Source: an uncultured Fretibacterium sp.
GTDB taxonomy: Bacteria; Synergistota; Synergistia; Synergistales; Aminobacteriaceae
Reading direction: 5' to 3'
DNA length: 64,000 bases
Assembly (NCBI GenBank): GCA_946183145.1
Contig: CAMGZM010000001.1
Span: 124,001 to 188,000 of the forward strand
The position numbers and the translations under genes are program-made. Below the pieces are notes generated by a model. The model saw only the letters and a list, made by a program, of their open reading frames with translations. It was not told where the DNA came from and searched no databases. Shown here one piece after another: positions 43,101 through 52,256 of the stretch (its first letter is position 1; each line of letters opens with the position of its first letter).

Positions 43101-44230
43101 TAGTGATGGAACAATCTCCTGCCCGTCATAACCATAGCCATCCCGTAATCATCGCAAGCCTTAATCACTAAGTCATCGCGGATTGATCCTCCCGGCTGCG
43201 CTACAAACTTCACACCGCTCAACCTCGCACGCTCTATACTGTCAGGGAACGGGAAGAAAGCATCACTTCCGAGACTCGCGCCTGCATTCTGTGAGATGAA
43301 GCTCCGTTTTTCGTCAGCACTCAGAAAATCACCGCCAAGCATTGACGATATAGCGTTGTCCCTTTCAGGCCGTCCCAAATCATCGCGGAACTCAAGCTCC
43401 AACACTTTCGGATGTTCACGGAGCAAACGCAAGTCTGCCTTATCACACGCAAGCCTCACACAGTGCAATCTTGACTGCTGACCAGCCCCGACTCCTAACG
43501 TCTGTCCGTCCTTCGTAACACATACTGAGTTTGACTGCGTATATTTCAGCGTGATTAGTGCGAGAGTCAAATCTCTTCTTGCGGATTCGGGAATGTCTTT
43601 GCGGACTGTTACGGGCGAGTCATATTTCGACGGCTCAATTACGGGTGCTGTGTTCCGTCCCTGCTCAAACGTTATCCCGAAAATGTCGCGGGTTTCTGTT
43701 GACACTGGCTCATAATCCGGGTCAATCTTAACGACTGCGTAATTTCCTTTGCGTTTTGACTTGAGAATTTCGAGGGCTTCTGGAGTGTATGAAGGCGCGA
43801 TTATTCCGTCTGAGACTTCACGCTTGATGAACATCGCGGTTATCTCGTCGCATTCGTCGCTCAACGCTATCCAGTCCCCGAATGATGACAATCTGTCTGT
43901 GCCTCTTGCGCGCACATATGCACAAGCCAGCGGGGAGTCGTTTATGCTGAGATTTGAGTCGACAAAGAAGAGTTTTCGTTCTGTTTCTGTGAGAGGGAGT
44001 CCGATTGCTGCGCCTGCGGGACTCACGTGCTTGAATGAAGCTGCTGACGGAAGATTGAGACTCGCTTTCAGTTCGCGGACTAACTGCCACGAGTTGAGAG
44101 CGTCAAGAAAATTTATGTAGCCCGGCCTGCCGTTGAAAATTTCGATGGGCAATTCGCTTCCGTCCCTCATGAAAATTTTTGCTGGTGTCTGATTCGGATT
44201 CGTTCCGTATTTCAGCTCGTATTCTTTCAT
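43100..44230 (-). CDS. purH: stand-alone AICAR transformylase (PurH formyltransferase domain)
   Basis: The 376-residue protein consists only of the AICARFT domain; the MGS-type IMP cyclohydrolase domain that precedes it in normal PurH (about 510-525 residues) is absent. The KYGTNPNQTPAKIF start and SFKHVSPAGAAIG, with the catalytic Lys-His, are typical, as are KYTQSNSVCV and GAGQQSRLHCVRLA. It formylates AICAR to FAICAR. The missing cyclohydrolase activity is most likely supplied by the PurO-like domain fused to PurN in the same gene run. Confidence 0.92.
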   Translation of the reverse strand: MKEYELKYGTNPNQTPAKIFMRDGSELPIEIFNGRPGYINFLDALNSWQLVRELKASLNLPSAASFKHVSPAGAAIGLPLTETERKLFFVDSNLSINDSPLACAYVRARGTDRLSSFGDWIALSDECDEITAMFIKREVSDGIIAPSYTPEALEILKSKRKGNYAVVKIDPDYEPVSTETRDIFGITFEQGRNTAPVIEPSKYDSPVTVRKDIPESARRDLTLALITLKYTQSNSVCVTKDGQTLGVGAGQQSRLHCVRLACDKADLRLLREHPKVLELEFRDDLGRPERDNAISSMLGGDFLSADEKRSFISQNAGASLGSDAFFPFPDSIERARLSGVKFVAQPGGSIRDDLVIKACDDYGMAMVMTGRRLFHH

Positions 44231-44255
44231 TGATTTTCACTGCTACGTAAAAAGT

Positions 44256-44450
44256 GTTATTTCGTGTTACCGACACTTTTTCGACCGTTCCTCATTCTTT
44301 CCGTATTTCTACAGCATTTCCTGCCCTCGTTCGCCGTAGCTAATAGAGTTGGTTCGGCAGTCCAGAGGCTTTTACTTCCCGCGTAGCCCGCGGTAGCTAT
44401 GTTTCCATAGAATTTTCATTTTATTGGTCGTTTTGCATCTCACACCCCGG
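44256..44450 (-). mobile_element. solo end of a TnpB-type element, internally deleted
   Basis: The 305-base gap 44231-44535 has no complete gene. Read on the minus strand it holds GGGGTGTGAGATGC, like the GGAGGTGTGAGAATGC at the tnpB start (50255-50270). Then come GGGAAGTAAAAGCCTCTGGA, TTAGCTACGGCGAACGAGGGC and GAATGAGGAACG, which match in order GGGGAGTTGAAGCCTCTGGA, TTAGTAGCGAGTAAC and GAATGAGGAAGGAACG after the intact tnpB (51475-51560). The reading frame between is lost. So this is a related element reduced to its ends, in the middle of the purine run. Confidence 0.6.
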
Positions 44451-44535
44451 CACGTAGCAGATTATTCCTCCTTTTATCTTTTGTCAAGGTGCTGTGAGTA
44501 ACACTAATTATCATAATTTTTCTCAAAAATAGGAG

Positions 44536-45165
44536 CTAGATATGTCTCCTTATTGCGTTTATTATTGTGTCTCTGAGATTGTCATAATCTGTCTCAATTG
44601 CTCCAAGAGATTTTATTCGGTTAAGCGTGATTATCTTCTGCATTCCGACTCCGGCTTCAATTGAACGAGTCAGAAGCACAAAGAATTTCCATTGCGACAA
44701 GTCCAGAATATTAAGGCTCTCCTGTTCGATGTGATTGTGAAAGCAGAAAACATATACATCAGAATCCCGCGTGAGTTCATCAGCATATGTACTTGTCTCC
44801 ATGTCCCACGAATGAGCCGGACGAATCGAGAAACTTACGGACGATAATTTTTCCTGCGGCCATACCTGAATATATCCTGACGCTTTGACCTCTATTTTGA
44901 TTCCTTCAGGCGAAAGAACATCATAGCTTTTCCAGCTTTGGCGGACTGTATCAGACTCATTCATTGCCGTGTGAACTAGAAACTCCGCGAATGCTGCCCG
45001 CTCTGTGTTGTCGATTAATGCCGAATGCGCCCATGACCAATAATCTGTCAGCCGTAATTCTGTGCCTGTGATTCTTCCATGGCCGGTTAACGCTTCTGAC
45101 TCAATCAGCGGATATTTATGCTGTCTGCGTGTTGTACAGCTTATCCCGATATTTTTCACCGTCAT
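44536..45165 (-). CDS. PD-(D/E)XK-like uncharacterised protein
   Basis: The 209-residue protein contains SYDVLSPEGIKIEVKASGYIQVW, in which D, E and K fit a PD-(D/E)XK nuclease site. It is preceded by TDYWSWAHSALIDNTERAAFAEFLV, a stretch I have seen in a widespread unnamed family. It has no membrane segment. The 5' end overlaps the purN gene by 50 bp; the ATG at 45165 is the only plausible one but weak. Its role between purine genes is unclear: it may be a passenger nuclease or a remnant of a defence gene. Confidence 0.55.
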   Translation of the reverse strand: MTVKNIGISCTTRRQHKYPLIESEALTGHGRITGTELRLTDYWSWAHSALIDNTERAAFAEFLVHTAMNESDTVRQSWKSYDVLSPEGIKIEVKASGYIQVWPQEKLSSVSFSIRPAHSWDMETSTYADELTRDSDVYVFCFHNHIEQESLNILDLSQWKFFVLLTRSIEAGVGMQKIITLNRIKSLGAIETDYDNLRDTIINAIRRHI

Positions 45166-48700: not shown

Positions 48701-50176
48701 ATGGAGCAGGATTTATTTAGCTGGCTTAATTCCCAGAAAAAAACAAATGATACAGGTCTTCTTGTTGCGCCTTTGAGTCAAAATTCGGAGTCGCCGCTTG
48801 AGAATCACGCGCACGAAAATCAAATCACCGTCCCAGACTCACAACAGCAAGATACAAACGCATATTTTCAGAATCACGACTCAGAATCTCAACAGCAAGA
48901 TTTTTCCGCGTATATCAATGACGAGTCAGCAAAAGATTTTCAGCGGCATGAAGATACGAGCGCATACACTCAGGATTACGACTCAGAATCACAACAGCAA
49001 GATTCATCCGCGTATGTCAATGACGAGCCAGCAAAAGATTTTCAGCGGCATGAAGATACGAACGCATACCCTCAGGATTACGACACAGAAGCACGACAGC
49101 AAGATTTTTCCGTATATGTCAATGATGAGTCAGCAAAAAGTTTTCAGCGGCATGAAGATACAAGCGCATATTCTCAGAATCTCGCACCAGAATCACGACA
49201 GGAAGAATCGCCCGCATATGTCAATGATGAGCCAGCAAATGAAGATGATATTTTGCAGACTCTTCCGCCTGAAGCAGTCTCATACGGAGATGACGAAATC
49301 CCGCAGGATCACGACTGGCAGGAACGCGCAACGGGCTTCACACTGAGCCTTGACGAACCGCCCCCGGAACTCTGGACACACATCAATGATGATGACCCTG
49401 ACCCAGAATATGAAGCTACAGACAGTTTGCAGGGAGCAGCGTATGTTCAGATACATGGCCGGAATTTTACGGAGCGTCTGCACCACACGTTAAAGCACAG
49501 GAAAGAACGTGCAGAGGAACGGGCGCAGGCTGAAAACGATAATCCCCCGTCAAAAACTCTCATGCAGATAGCTGTGATTCTCTGCGGAACTCTCGTTATC
49601 GTTATGGGATTCGCTTGCCTCTCTTTGTGGTTCGTATGGCGTGAGACTCCTGACGGCATGAAACGAAGGGCAGAGTCATTCATCGAGTCAGGGAATTTTG
49701 ACGAGGCATCAGAGATTTACAGGAAGGCGCACAGGCGTTACCCGAATGAAGCGGAATTTCTCGCACGTCTCTCGGAGTCGTCAGAAAAGGCCGGGCATCA
49801 TCAGACCGCAAAGGCAGCCCGTGAAGAGTACCAGAACAAAACAGAAAGCAAAGACATTCCCCCAAAACCTGAAATCAAGCCTCAAACTTTCACCCGTCAT
49901 ATTATCCCGGAAGAAAAGCCGATGACGTTCAAAGATTATCTTGACGAGGGGAATTACGCCTACAATATAGGGATGTACAACAGGGCGGTGATATATTTTT
50001 CGCGGGCAATGAGCATTAACAGTAGGGACATACGGCCATATTTGGGACTCGCCGCATGTTACAGGATGAAGGGTATGTATTTCGACTCGAACCGCATACT
50101 TGAGGAGGCACGGCGGATTTTCGGAAGGAGTCCGGCTATTGATATGGGCATTTACTTTTTGAGGGAGGCTAAGTAA
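48701..50176 (+). CDS. membrane-anchored TPR protein with 34-residue repeats
   Basis: Residues about 1-180 are polar and repetitive. Four copies of a 34-residue unit, with AYxQDYDSESQQQD, AYVNDEPAKDFQRHEDT, lie at about 54-190. A transmembrane segment (IAVILCGTLVIVMGFACLSLWFVW) is at about 288-311. After it come TPR-like helices: AESFIESGNFDEASEIYRKA and YAYNIGMYNRAVIYFSRAM. So the repeats should be cytoplasmic and the TPR part periplasmic, or the reverse. No signal peptide and no clear ribosome site. Function unknown; scaffolding is an inference. Confidence 0.75.
   Translation: MEQDLFSWLNSQKKTNDTGLLVAPLSQNSESPLENHAHENQITVPDSQQQDTNAYFQNHDSESQQQDFSAYINDESAKDFQRHEDTSAYTQDYDSESQQQDSSAYVNDEPAKDFQRHEDTNAYPQDYDTEARQQDFSVYVNDESAKSFQRHEDTSAYSQNLAPESRQEESPAYVNDEPANEDDILQTLPPEAVSYGDDEIPQDHDWQERATGFTLSLDEPPPELWTHINDDDPDPEYEATDSLQGAAYVQIHGRNFTERLHHTLKHRKERAEERAQAENDNPPSKTLMQIAVILCGTLVIVMGFACLSLWFVWRETPDGMKRRAESFIESGNFDEASEIYRKAHRRYPNEAEFLARLSESSEKAGHHQTAKAAREEYQNKTESKDIPPKPEIKPQTFTRHIIPEEKPMTFKDYLDEGNYAYNIGMYNRAVIYFSRAMSINSRDIRPYLGLAACYRMKGMYFDSNRILEEARRIFGRSPAIDMGIYFLREAK
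48860..49267 (+). repeat. tandem 102-bp repeats within the TPR gene
   Basis: Three full units and one partial unit of 102 bp in frame encode the 34-residue motif of the TPR protein. The nucleotide identity between units is high (GATGACGAG(T/C)CAGCAAAAGA-type blocks recur), so the array may vary in copy number between strains. Confidence 0.85.
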
Positions 50177-50188
50177 CAGCTAATAAAT

Positions 50189-51587
50189 CTTACAAAAAGT
50201 TGTAAATTCCTTATTATTTTGTAAGTTTTCTCACTGCCGTATAATAAAAATGAAGGAGGTGTGAGAATGCTTAAGACTTTGCGGGTTATGTTAATTCCTA
50301 ATGACAGGCAGCAGACACGATTATTCCAATTTGCAGGCAGCGCGAGATTTGCATACAACTGGGCATTATCTGAGGAAAAGAAAAATCATGCTGAGAGCGG
50401 GAATTTCATCAATGACTATGAGCTTCGCAAACGCTTTACGTTATTCAAGAACGAGCCGGGAAATGAATGGCTTTATACGATAAGCAACAACGTATGCAAG
50501 CAGGCAGTCAAGGATGCAATAAAAGCATATGAAAAGTTTTTCAAAGGATTGGCGCAATTTCCGAAATATAAAAGCCGTAAGCACAGCAAGCCGAGTTTTT
50601 ATGCTGATCCTGTAAAGATAAAGTTTACGGGAACACACGTAAAACTTGAGAACATAGCGCAATGTAAAAGAAAGAACCGACAGGGTGCAAACTGGTTCAG
50701 ATTGGCAGAACATAATCGAATACCGACAAATGCAAAATATAGTAATCCGCGAATAAGTTTCGATGGGCTGAATTGGTTTCTCACAGTCGGAATTAAGTTT
50801 GAAGCTCCCGAACTGACAGCAAAAACAAATAACGGTATTGGTATTGATTTAGGGATTAAGGACTTGGCAATATGCAGCAGCGGCCATGTCTACAGGAACA
50901 TCAACAAGACAAGCCGTGTGAGACGGTTAAAGAAGAAACAGCGAAGGTTGCAGCGCAAAAACTCACGTAAATACGAGAAAAACAAGAAAGGAGAAAGTTA
51001 TCAGAAGACATGCAACATTGTAAAGAGTGAAAAGCAGCTTTTACGAATAACCCACAGGCTAACGAACATCAGAACGAATTACATTCAGCAGGTTACAACC
51101 GAGATAATAAAGCGAGAACCAAGTTTTATTGTCATGGAAGATTTGAATGTATCAGGAATGATGAAGGACAAACATCTGGCAAAAGCCATTCAGGAGCAAA
51201 AATTTGCAGAGTTCTACAGGATAATGCAATACAAATGTTCATGGCACGGCATAAGGCTAATCACGGCGGACAGGTTTTACGCAAGCAGCAAGACATGTTC
51301 AATCTGCGGGAATATCAAGAAAGACCTGAAACTCTCAGACAGGATATATCACTGTGAAAAATGCGGAGCTGTTATAGATCGGGATATGAATGCCAGCATA
51401 AATTTGTATCAATATGGGAAATCAATCATTAACCACTGAGAAGGAATTATTGATATGTACCCGTACGTTAGCGGGGAGTTGAAGCCTCTGGAGCGTTACA
51501 CCAAACGTTAGTAGCGAGTAACACCAGCAAAAGCGGACGCAGTGAATGAGGAAGGAACGCATAAAAGTTAATAGCTTTTTATAAGTC
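50189..51587 (+). mobile_element. IS200/IS605-group (IS1341-type) element with tnpB only
   Basis: The left side has a 9-bp inverted repeat (CTTACAAAA / TTTTGTAAG, 50189-50225), then TATAAT at 50240. The single gene is tnpB. After its stop, a 145-bp non-coding tail contains GGGGAGTTGAAGCCTCTGGA and ends in a palindrome (CATAAAAGTTAATAGCTTTTTATA, 51560-51587). There is no TnpA transposase, so mobility would depend on another copy. Ends are estimated. Confidence 0.65.
50267..51439 (+). CDS. tnpB: TnpB RNA-guided endonuclease (IS1341 type)
   Basis: AAGGAGGT precedes the ATG at 50267; a GTG six bases upstream is also in frame. RuvC residues are intact: GIGIDLGIKDLA (Asp), IVMEDLNVSGM (Glu) and VIDRDMNASINL (Asp). 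The zinc finger between the last two is CSICGN...CEKCGA. The N-terminal domain has the usual RFAYNWALSEEKK and WLYTISNNVCKQAVKDA. TnpB proteins cut DNA guided by an omega RNA from the element's own 3' end. 390 residues, typical, so probably active. The protein ends soon after the last catalytic Asp. Confidence 0.93.
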   Translation: MLKTLRVMLIPNDRQQTRLFQFAGSARFAYNWALSEEKKNHAESGNFINDYELRKRFTLFKNEPGNEWLYTISNNVCKQAVKDAIKAYEKFFKGLAQFPKYKSRKHSKPSFYADPVKIKFTGTHVKLENIAQCKRKNRQGANWFRLAEHNRIPTNAKYSNPRISFDGLNWFLTVGIKFEAPELTAKTNNGIGIDLGIKDLAICSSGHVYRNINKTSRVRRLKKKQRRLQRKNSRKYEKNKKGESYQKTCNIVKSEKQLLRITHRLTNIRTNYIQQVTTEIIKREPSFIVMEDLNVSGMMKDKHLAKAIQEQKFAEFYRIMQYKCSWHGIRLITADRFYASSKTCSICGNIKKDLKLSDRIYHCEKCGAVIDRDMNASINLYQYGKSIINH

Positions 51588-51602: not shown

Positions 51603-52256
51603 ATGAAAATGGTACACGAGAACGTAATACGCGCAAATGAAATCATCGGCAATGACATTGTGAAGGCACTAAAGCGCAGGGGCTTCGGTGCTGAATATGT
51701 CGCGACAAGTGAAGAGGCTCTGAAGAGAGTCATGGAGATTATCCCGTCAGACGCTACTGTAGGAATCCCCGGCACAATCACAGTGAGGGACATCGGAGCA
51801 TTGGACGCGCTCAAAGCGAGAGGCAATACAGTCTTCCAGCACTGGGGAAAAATGTCGAACGAGGAACGCAGAGCCGCAAGATTCCGCGAGAACACAGCGG
51901 ATGTATTTCTGACGAGCGCGAACGCAGTAACAAGAGACGGGCGAATCATCAACATTGACGGAACAGGGAACAGAGTCGCGGGAATGGCTTGGGGAAATGG
52001 CCTCGTGCTTTTCGTGATCGGTCTCAACAAGTTAGCGTTTGACCTTGAGGACGGACTCAAGCGTGCGAAATCCGCGACGATTCCCAACGCAATACGCCAG
52101 AACGTAGAGACAGCATGCGTAAAGGCCGGGCATTGTGTGAACTGCTCGACAGCAGGAGATGAAGACTCAATGTGCCGCGCGATTCTCATCCTTGAAGAAG
52201 CCGTTAAAGGCCGGGACTATCACGTGATAATTGTCGGTGAAGATTTAGGATACTAA
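51603..52256 (+). CDS. LUD-domain (LutC/DUF162-like) protein
   Basis: The 217-residue protein contains DATVGIPGTITVRDIGALDALKARG, ADVFLTSANAVTRDGRIINIDGTGNRVAGM and FVIGLNKL, which match the LUD/LutC fold. Such proteins take part in lactate oxidation (LutABC), but LutA and LutB are absent. A C-terminal cysteine group, HCVNCSTAGDEDSMC, could bind metal. It lacks a good ribosome site and starts 16 bp after the tnpB element end, so the element may have displaced its promoter. Confidence 0.82.
   Translation: MKMVHENVIRANEIIGNDIVKALKRRGFGAEYVATSEEALKRVMEIIPSDATVGIPGTITVRDIGALDALKARGNTVFQHWGKMSNEERRAARFRENTADVFLTSANAVTRDGRIINIDGTGNRVAGMAWGNGLVLFVIGLNKLAFDLEDGLKRAKSATIPNAIRQNVETACVKAGHCVNCSTAGDEDSMCRAILILEEAVKGRDYHVIIVGEDLGY

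Follow-up and report, generated by a model that had tools for sequence, protein, structure and literature searches.

A gene-less relative of IS607-type TnpB elements between the Shine-Dalgarno site and the start codon of a purH-like gene, and a candidate split ribosome-binding site

A non-coding stretch directly in front of a purine gene raises two questions, namely what it is and how the gene behind it might still be translated. The window, which is the whole stretch of 64,000 nucleotides analyzed here from an uncultured Fretibacterium sp., carries a run of purine genes, as the first-pass annotation had recognized, in which this stretch is followed by an AICARFT/IMPCHase-like gene and preceded by a fused formyltransferase and IMP-cyclohydrolase gene. 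That annotation noted sequence blocks shared with the start and tail of the tnpB element at 50.2-51.6 kb and proposed a non-autonomous element or an orphan omega-RNA-like scaffold; insertion between a Shine-Dalgarno (SD) site and a start codon, and the internal SD and helix module described below, are absent from it. The features that define the locus are as follows.

44240-44545, minus strand: whole non-autonomous element, 306 bp, seen as an insert against the empty site of L046
44546-44551, minus strand: TAM AAGGAG, the original SD site of the purH-like gene, from the empty-site comparison with L046 and the published TAM AGGAG (PMC11061315)
43100-44230, minus strand: purH-like gene (AICARFT/IMPCHase), whose start codon lies 9 nt past the right end of the element
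44536-45165, minus strand: ORF of 209 aa within the purine run, without a Pfam match, its stop codon supplied by the element

The stretch can be read as an insert by comparison with L046, the closest named relative, in which the DNA before the purH-like gene reads AATAAGGAG and then TGAAAGCAAATG (also written CGCAATAAGGAG and then TGAAAGCAAATG) with no insert. The same place in the target reads CGCAATAAGGAG, then an element running from ACATATCTAG to ACGTAGCAG, then TGAAAATCAATG. Because this empty site and exact matching place the bounds at 44545 and 44240, the extent of 44256-44450 first given to the region is too narrow. As the TAM AAGGAG is the SD site, the element parts that site from the purH start codon, leaving 9 nt between its right end and the ATG. 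There is no target-site duplication, and filled and empty sites share at most a 2-bp exchange core; this core is GG for IS607 in the passages of PMC10711439 and PMC6188088 that describe it, and exchange would have taken place at AG in subfamily 1 and at GG in subfamily 2 of the elements described below. A shorter element, with CTGCTACGT as its left end and the internal AAAGGAGG as its TAM, was considered and rejected, since L046 puts the left end 85 nt further out; the left-end motif of the target is also similar, by eye, in other copies. No ORF of at least 60 aa lies wholly within 44240-44545, and one overlaps the left edge. In L046, a homologue of the 209-aa ORF is only partly present at that place. 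Most named relatives in which this gene has an orthologue are Synergistaceae/Fretibacterium MAGs from ruminants. At the level of sequence comparison, the target site, the boundaries and the conserved SD and pairing are established.

Copies in the same genome help to identify the parent system. A 265-nt query matches seven places in the 2.5-Mb genome: the target itself, two that align at 81% along almost all of the query, and four that align with parts of it. One of these, on contig C9, forms the tail of a tnpB gene. This C9 element and the target end in the same 23 nt. In blastn with the query 44535-44238, which leaves out 10 nt at the left end and takes in 2 nt past the right end, the C9 tail matches at E 9e-9 over 25/25 nt, comprising those 23 nt and two flanking bases, and again at E 3e-8 over 71 nt at 75%. 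The C9 TnpB has 404 aa, no internal stop and the expected TnpB domains; no resolvase-type gene was found at C9, and the C9 element itself seems to be without tnpA. This uninterrupted tnpB with an identical end, together with many gene-less sisters, fits the idea of a non-autonomous element. The tnpB element of the window, with which the first-pass annotation had compared the stretch, gives only a weak match to the target (blastn E 0.008) and belongs to a second subfamily, the C9 subfamily being nearer. Its features are the following.

50161-50168, plus strand: GAGGGAGG, presumed TAM/SD site of the window tnpB element, from its sequence and from GAGGG as the second published TAM (PMC11061315)
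50169-51598, plus strand: tnpB element of the second subfamily, with a left boundary placed from the TAM
50261-51439, plus strand: tnpB ORF, 392 aa, GTG start as listed
50984-51009, plus strand: SD-like AAGAAAGGAG and strand GTTATCAGAAGAC within tnpB, complementary to the right end with a small interruption
51485-51553, plus strand: RAGATH-18 core of this element, Rfam 65.2 bits
51585-51598, plus strand: right end GTCTTCTGTAACGG, the LUD gene beginning at 51603

Of the blocks said to be shared between the target and this element, the scaffold tail stands, as a RAGATH-18-like sequence at 44368-44306. The supposed start block does not: it is a chance 9-mer, since the longest common word of 9 nt is equalled in 239/2000 shuffles, and by eye it is unconserved in sister copies. 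In two second-subfamily relatives (L183 and L189), TnpB is preceded by a TnpA that has MerR and Resolvase domains, and the family is therefore IS607 proper; the system is IS607/RAGATH-18 and not IS605. In the genome studied here (G000), a matching TnpA was not found, its sole resolvase-domain gene having an N-terminal resolvase domain and no MerR match, and the target is non-coding, with no serine recombinase TnpA with a MerR-like N-terminus in it. The genome has 18 places with a TnpB C-terminal domain, twelve of which score 36-48 bits, far under the other six, and probably represent other TnpB families. Beside the window tnpB element, the last codons and stop of a TPR-domain ORF (48701-50176), GAGGCTAAGTAA, include bases of the element, and this insertion probably altered the C-terminus of that ORF.

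The non-coding parts of the target resemble those of a guide-RNA locus, with the following features.

44306-44368, minus strand: RAGATH-18-like scaffold core, from Rfam RF03064 and covariance model R1
44379-44393, minus strand: 5' hairpin with a GGCTA loop capable of pairing with the right end, like the published PK2
44249-44281, minus strand: terminal hairpin AAAAAGTGT...ACACTTTTT
44240-44248, minus strand: right end ACGTAGCAG, right strand of helix P1 and partner in PK2
44459-44487, minus strand: promoter-like site TTGACA-17-TAATCT inside the element
44220-44239, minus strand: predicted 20-nt guide, host sequence to the right of the element including the purH ATG, expected from the architecture in PMC11061315 and the empty-site sequence of L046

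RF03064 matches at 44368-44306 with 21.4 bits and E 0.12, below its gathering score of 44.9, and the target aligns along its length with sister scaffolds. Covariance model R1, built from eight copies with the target among them, has eight hits in this genome and also hits 31/43 genomes of the genus and 34/185 of the phylum. TTGACA, with at most one mismatch, stands 16-18 nt before the -10 in 27/35 subfamily-1 copies that have the module described below. PK2 can form between loop GGCTA and TAGC, or between CGTTA and TAACG. In L178 the PK2 loop and right end have changed together (CGCTA with TAGCG), and in L192 both are altered with the outer pair unrestored. According to Ren et al. (PMC11061315), RAGATH-18 RNA guides IS607-type TnpB, with AGGAG as TAM in 18/22 strains and GAGGG in 4/22, and 64% (10,258/16,029) of RAGATH-18 RNAs adjoin an IS607 TnpB. 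The locus has its two ends, a TAM, a scaffold and a promoter-like site, which agrees well with the proposed orphan scaffold in a non-autonomous element. It is almost certainly non-autonomous and related to IS607-type TnpB elements that use a RAGATH-18 guide RNA, having inserted at the AAGGAG that served as the SD site of the purH-like gene.

A search of 44200-44540 against Rfam at E up to 1 matched no family except RAGATH-18, and assignment as HEARO or a riboswitch was rejected. A regulatory RNA of the host that serves the purine operon and has no link to transposons would fit the place of the stretch before a biosynthetic gene in that operon; the empty sites refute this, as relatives lack the stretch at the orthologous site and many genomes have the same element in front of unrelated genes, and we assign this reading practically no probability. 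It is quite likely, to judge from its layout, that the promoter-like site of the element could yield a scaffold with a guide from the purH start, and that a TnpB from elsewhere in the genome could use it. We infer here transcription, processing and use in trans by TnpB. TnpB equipped with such a target-derived guide would cut uninterrupted alleles, and the element would thereby be kept.

AGGAG is the core of the Shine-Dalgarno sequence, and the position of the element between an SD site and a start codon recurs in related copies. We considered 88 copies, consisting of 80 among the matches listed for other genomes, with those away from contig ends preferred, and the eight of this genome; L163 and L184, with unparsed right ends, and one copy with less than 250 nt downstream were dropped. 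Within the genus, the right end is followed after 3-18 nt by the start codon of an ORF of 50 aa or more in 75/85 copies against 13.9% of 4250 random positions, and after 5-13 nt in 69/85 against 7.9%, these copies being related by descent and the counts not independent. The strict TAM pattern is present at 24/35 sister solos as opposed to 515/2960 random windows. In Firmicutes, where the Rfam model found copies in 3/40 and then in 24/200 genomes, a start codon lies 2-13 nt past the right end in 24/30 copies, the 30 being 33 loci minus L301, L304 and L310, whose right ends were not found; L262, also left out, has no ORF start near its right end. A further 20 copies, 13 of them from G130, a genome of another genus of the family, were viewed by eye outside these counts, and in G130 a start codon lies 1-15 nt past the right end in 13/13 copies fetched. 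Many of these G130 copies (L268-L280) have decayed tnpB and short tandem duplications GGATGAAGAAGGAAAAATAAGGATGAAGAAGG near the right end. In G026, G027 and G039, several copies share the same offset from the end of a MAG contig; the repeat seems to interrupt assembly, and the true number of copies is probably higher.

Start codons behind the copies include those of rpsK, rpsO, gatB and nusB. Pfam confirms S11, S15, GatB, Lgt, NifU/IscU, KhpA, NusB and a RaiA-like protein among the products of the genes struck, and we take MurC, DnaJ, Era, PfkA and others, as read from sequence, to be among them as well. In the genome studied here, rpsK has an element after CAGGAG and before GTAATCAAAAAGTG, and the scaffold core words are absent from 420 nt upstream in 27/27 readable rpsK loci elsewhere in the genus (L209 and L212 having been dropped from 30); rpsK has a single match per genome in 40/43 genus genomes, namely the 40 with any. 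At the purH of another species, a second-subfamily element with right end CTGTAACAG follows CAGGAGG, and relatives such as L048 and L050 have CAGGAGG-N8-ATG uninterrupted at the purH site. Both purH and the raiA-like gene have been struck by both subfamilies in different species. For the raiA-like gene, the subfamily-1 element is in this genome and the subfamily-2 element in another species (L014, L182); L014 and L182 are two independent insertions before one start codon. The gap between SD and AUG as the usual landing site of this family was not found in the literature searched, most subscription journals being outside that search.

Two further features inside the element bear on how the gene behind it might be translated.

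44467-44475, minus strand: internal SD-like AAAAGGAGG, conserved beside the P1 strand in gene-less copies
44452-44460, minus strand: P1 left strand CTGCTACGT, complementary to the right end

The middle of a subfamily-1 element without a gene reads TTGACA, then AAAGGAGG, NTTAAT and CTGCTACGT, where CTGCTACGT complements right end ACGTAGCAG; subfamily 2 has AAAGGAGGT...CCGTTACAG with right end CTGTAACGG. Between the two subfamilies, four of the nine P1 pairs are changed on both sides and still paired. Copies were called gene-less when no ORF near the scaffold matched the TnpB zinc-finger-end pattern, and eight that were too short upstream, some being cut tnpB tails, were left out. With a pairing score of at least 7 and an SD site 2-12 nt upstream as the test, the module is present in 36/40 copies of subfamily 1 and 16/18 of subfamily 2 (52/58), and in 4/1600 and 0/720 mononucleotide shuffles, respectively. 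The test fails in the other six (L110, L120, L164, L178, L194 and L199), with a variant in L164. Among the 36 is L133, in which CTGCTAC is lost and the match is apparently due to chance. The distance from SD to P1 is exactly 6 nt in 31/36 subfamily-1 copies, and the path that skips the loop measures 14-17 nt in 25/36 of these and 11-23 nt in subfamily 2. L015 has the module but no ORF start within 38 nt. A leader peptide read from the internal SD was rejected, as a start codon lies in reach, 4-12 nt after it, in only 0/36 copies of subfamily 1 and 1/16 of subfamily 2.

An alignment of P1 from 35 subfamily-1 sequences has 98% of cells paired, with nine cells altered on both sides (G-C to A-U or C-G, U-A to A-U) and a covariation score that none of the 500 shuffles and no slid version reaches. 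Five of ten pairs are invariant within subfamily 1; the count of pairs changed on both sides, two, is reached in 91/500 shuffles, and that of further pair types in 145/500. Another two-sided change is visible by eye in L282, where CTGCTGCGT goes with ACGCAGCAG. The mean pair probability of P1 in the target is 0.99 in pseudoknot-free folding, in which P1 cannot be weighed against PK2.

Complementary strands near the ends of a transposon could instead be inverted repeats bound on DNA by the TnpA recombinase, and IS607 ends do have imperfect repeats at varying distance from the ends, as described in part of PMC6188088. We consider this very improbable, because the left strand, near the left end in solos, lies 430-530 nt before the stop in tnpB copies, far from both ends, whereas TnpA footprints of IS1535 reach about 75 bp from the left end in the same part of PMC6188088. 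A more serious alternative is that of an ordinary mini-element with an orphan scaffold and no role in translation, in which the SD-like sequence and its complement would be a promoter spacer or a relic of tnpB. As a spacer, AAAGGAGG does fall within that of TTGACA-17-TAATCT in subfamily 1, where the -10 overlaps the P1 left strand; in subfamily 2, however, a TATAAT- or TAAAAT-like site is seen by eye downstream of the module, and AAAGGAGG is therefore no promoter spacer there. As a relic, the module might have been left by deletion from a tnpB of the same family, which has a similar stretch at a fixed place and in which the TnpB-loop residues KKGE or RKE yield AAAGGAG through codon choice. A relic should decay, yet the constant gap of 6 nt described above and the pairing kept in two subfamilies that differ on both sides at four of nine pairs speak against this, as does the match of synonymous codons in tnpB described next. 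This alternative, spacer and relic taken together, appears unlikely to us, though with appreciable weight.

Within tnpB, 19/19 copies (ORF of at least 180 aa; L185, a 56-aa fragment, was dropped) contain AAGGAG, or a sequence close to it, at 430-530 nt upstream of the stop and behind it the complement of their own right end in gapped duplexes, and a scan of the whole ORF places the best site there in 18/19. The lack of the module in tnpB copies suggested by a first count (1/8, 1/12) was an artefact of requiring unbroken pairing near the very end. Mean dG with right ends of the same group is -17.5 in subfamily 1 and -13.3 or -15.8 in the two forms of subfamily 2, as compared with -4.1 to -6.8 with right ends of the other subfamily. 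In subfamily 2, a synonymous choice of Lys codon, AAA or AAG, tracks T or C in the right end in 11/11 copies, and the swapped combinations are weaker (-9.6 vs -13.3 and -13.3 vs -15.8). Against synonymous shuffles, single sites are modest, 1 to 136 of 300 shuffles being as low, and of the 18 sites in the usual position, 10 reach 5% or lower. Among 23 readable tnpB ORFs of Firmicutes, the motif falls in the set window in 14, with a mean dG of -12.9 for cognate, -5.7 for non-cognate and -8.3 for synonymous comparisons, and 7/14 are at or below the 5% level. The strict SD motif is absent in the other 9/23, five of which keep the pairing strand behind a purine-rich variant such as AAAGGGGA, and in four the pairing strand is not clear.

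Placed into the context of the operon, these observations suggest how ribosomes might still reach the interrupted gene. In mRNA read through from the purine genes upstream, the internal AAAGGAGG would stand 6 nt upstream of the P1 left strand, the partner of the right end, and P1 would loop out about 200 nt, leaving AAAGGAGG, the helix, 9 nt and the ATG in series, with the helix ending at the last base of the element; ribosomes could then start on purH from the SD of the element. That the helix lets ribosomes start in this way is evenly balanced in our estimate, because the path is long. Bacteria can also begin translation without pairing between mRNA and rRNA, as stated in part of PMC7043885, which counts against the need for a split site.

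The same right-end bases serve P1 and PK2, so that mRNA and guide RNA should be mutually exclusive, and each transcript might become either a translatable mRNA or a guide RNA according to which pairing holds these bases. Transcripts from the internal promoter-like site of subfamily 1 would, because its -10 lies over the P1 left strand, begin past most of that strand and be destined for guide RNA. These features would also suit a P1 that acts only as a timing switch for guide-RNA maturation, hiding the right end from PK2 in long transcripts, with the SD-like sequence incidental or holding ribosomes: P1 and PK2 compete for the right-end bases, and internal transcripts would miss most of the left strand. 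Such a switch leaves unexplained both the strong SD at a fixed distance before P1 in non-coding copies and the end of P1 at the junction with the start-codon region, and we regard it as doubtful. Translation by way of the split ribosome-binding site, and the switch between the two fates, are what we infer from this arrangement. Taken together, element identity, guide RNA and split ribosome-binding site form what we narrowly believe to be the best explanation overall. For the class as a whole, we propose tentatively, at slightly less than an even chance, that IS607 TnpB/RAGATH-18 elements land on SD sites and hide a replacement SD, partly through synonymous tnpB codons, which a long-range helix would place at the interrupted start codon, the same right-end bases choosing between translation and guide RNA.

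Comparison with known systems places these proposals. ISFba1 and relatives, IS607 TnpB elements in PMC11061315, have a RAGATH-18 scaffold, a hairpin on its 5' flank that pairs through PK2 with the end of the scaffold, AGGAG or GAGGG as TAM and a guide taken from sequence to the right of the element. The target resembles them in its TAM, in its RAGATH-18-like core and in the predicted PK2 and guide, but is gene-less and scores too low for the Rfam threshold. Searched for "Shine", "ribosome" or "start codon", the main text of PMC11061315 gives 0 uses. In T4 genes 38 and 25, RNA structure between SD and AUG shortens the spacing from 22 to 5 and from 27 to 11 nt, according to passages of PMC3014915, and the pairing predicted here would similarly bring an SD and an AUG to working distance. 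The T4 structures described there are local, whereas the helix here would reach across about 200 to 600 nt and be supplied by a mobile element, with a skipped-loop path mostly longer than the 5 and 11 nt of T4.

If true, the split ribosome-binding site could explain how TnpB elements stand before essential single-copy genes such as rpsK without silencing them, would place an RNA signal inside a nuclease gene through synonymous choice, and would make a conflict between host mRNA and guide RNA open to concrete test. Even without rescue, the gap between SD and AUG is the usual landing site of the family in two phyla, a simple fact that can be checked. If true, the arrangement would also parallel self-splicing IStrons at the level of translation.

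Stand-alone omega-RNA loci of IscB also have a scaffold without a nuclease gene, as found here, although the nuclease family and the scaffold are different. In IStrons, splicing conflicts with the formation of guide RNA. IStrons self-splice via a group I intron, whereas no splicing is proposed here; as in the IStrons described in part of PMC4227781, a mobile element would nevertheless carry an RNA device that makes its insertion harmless.
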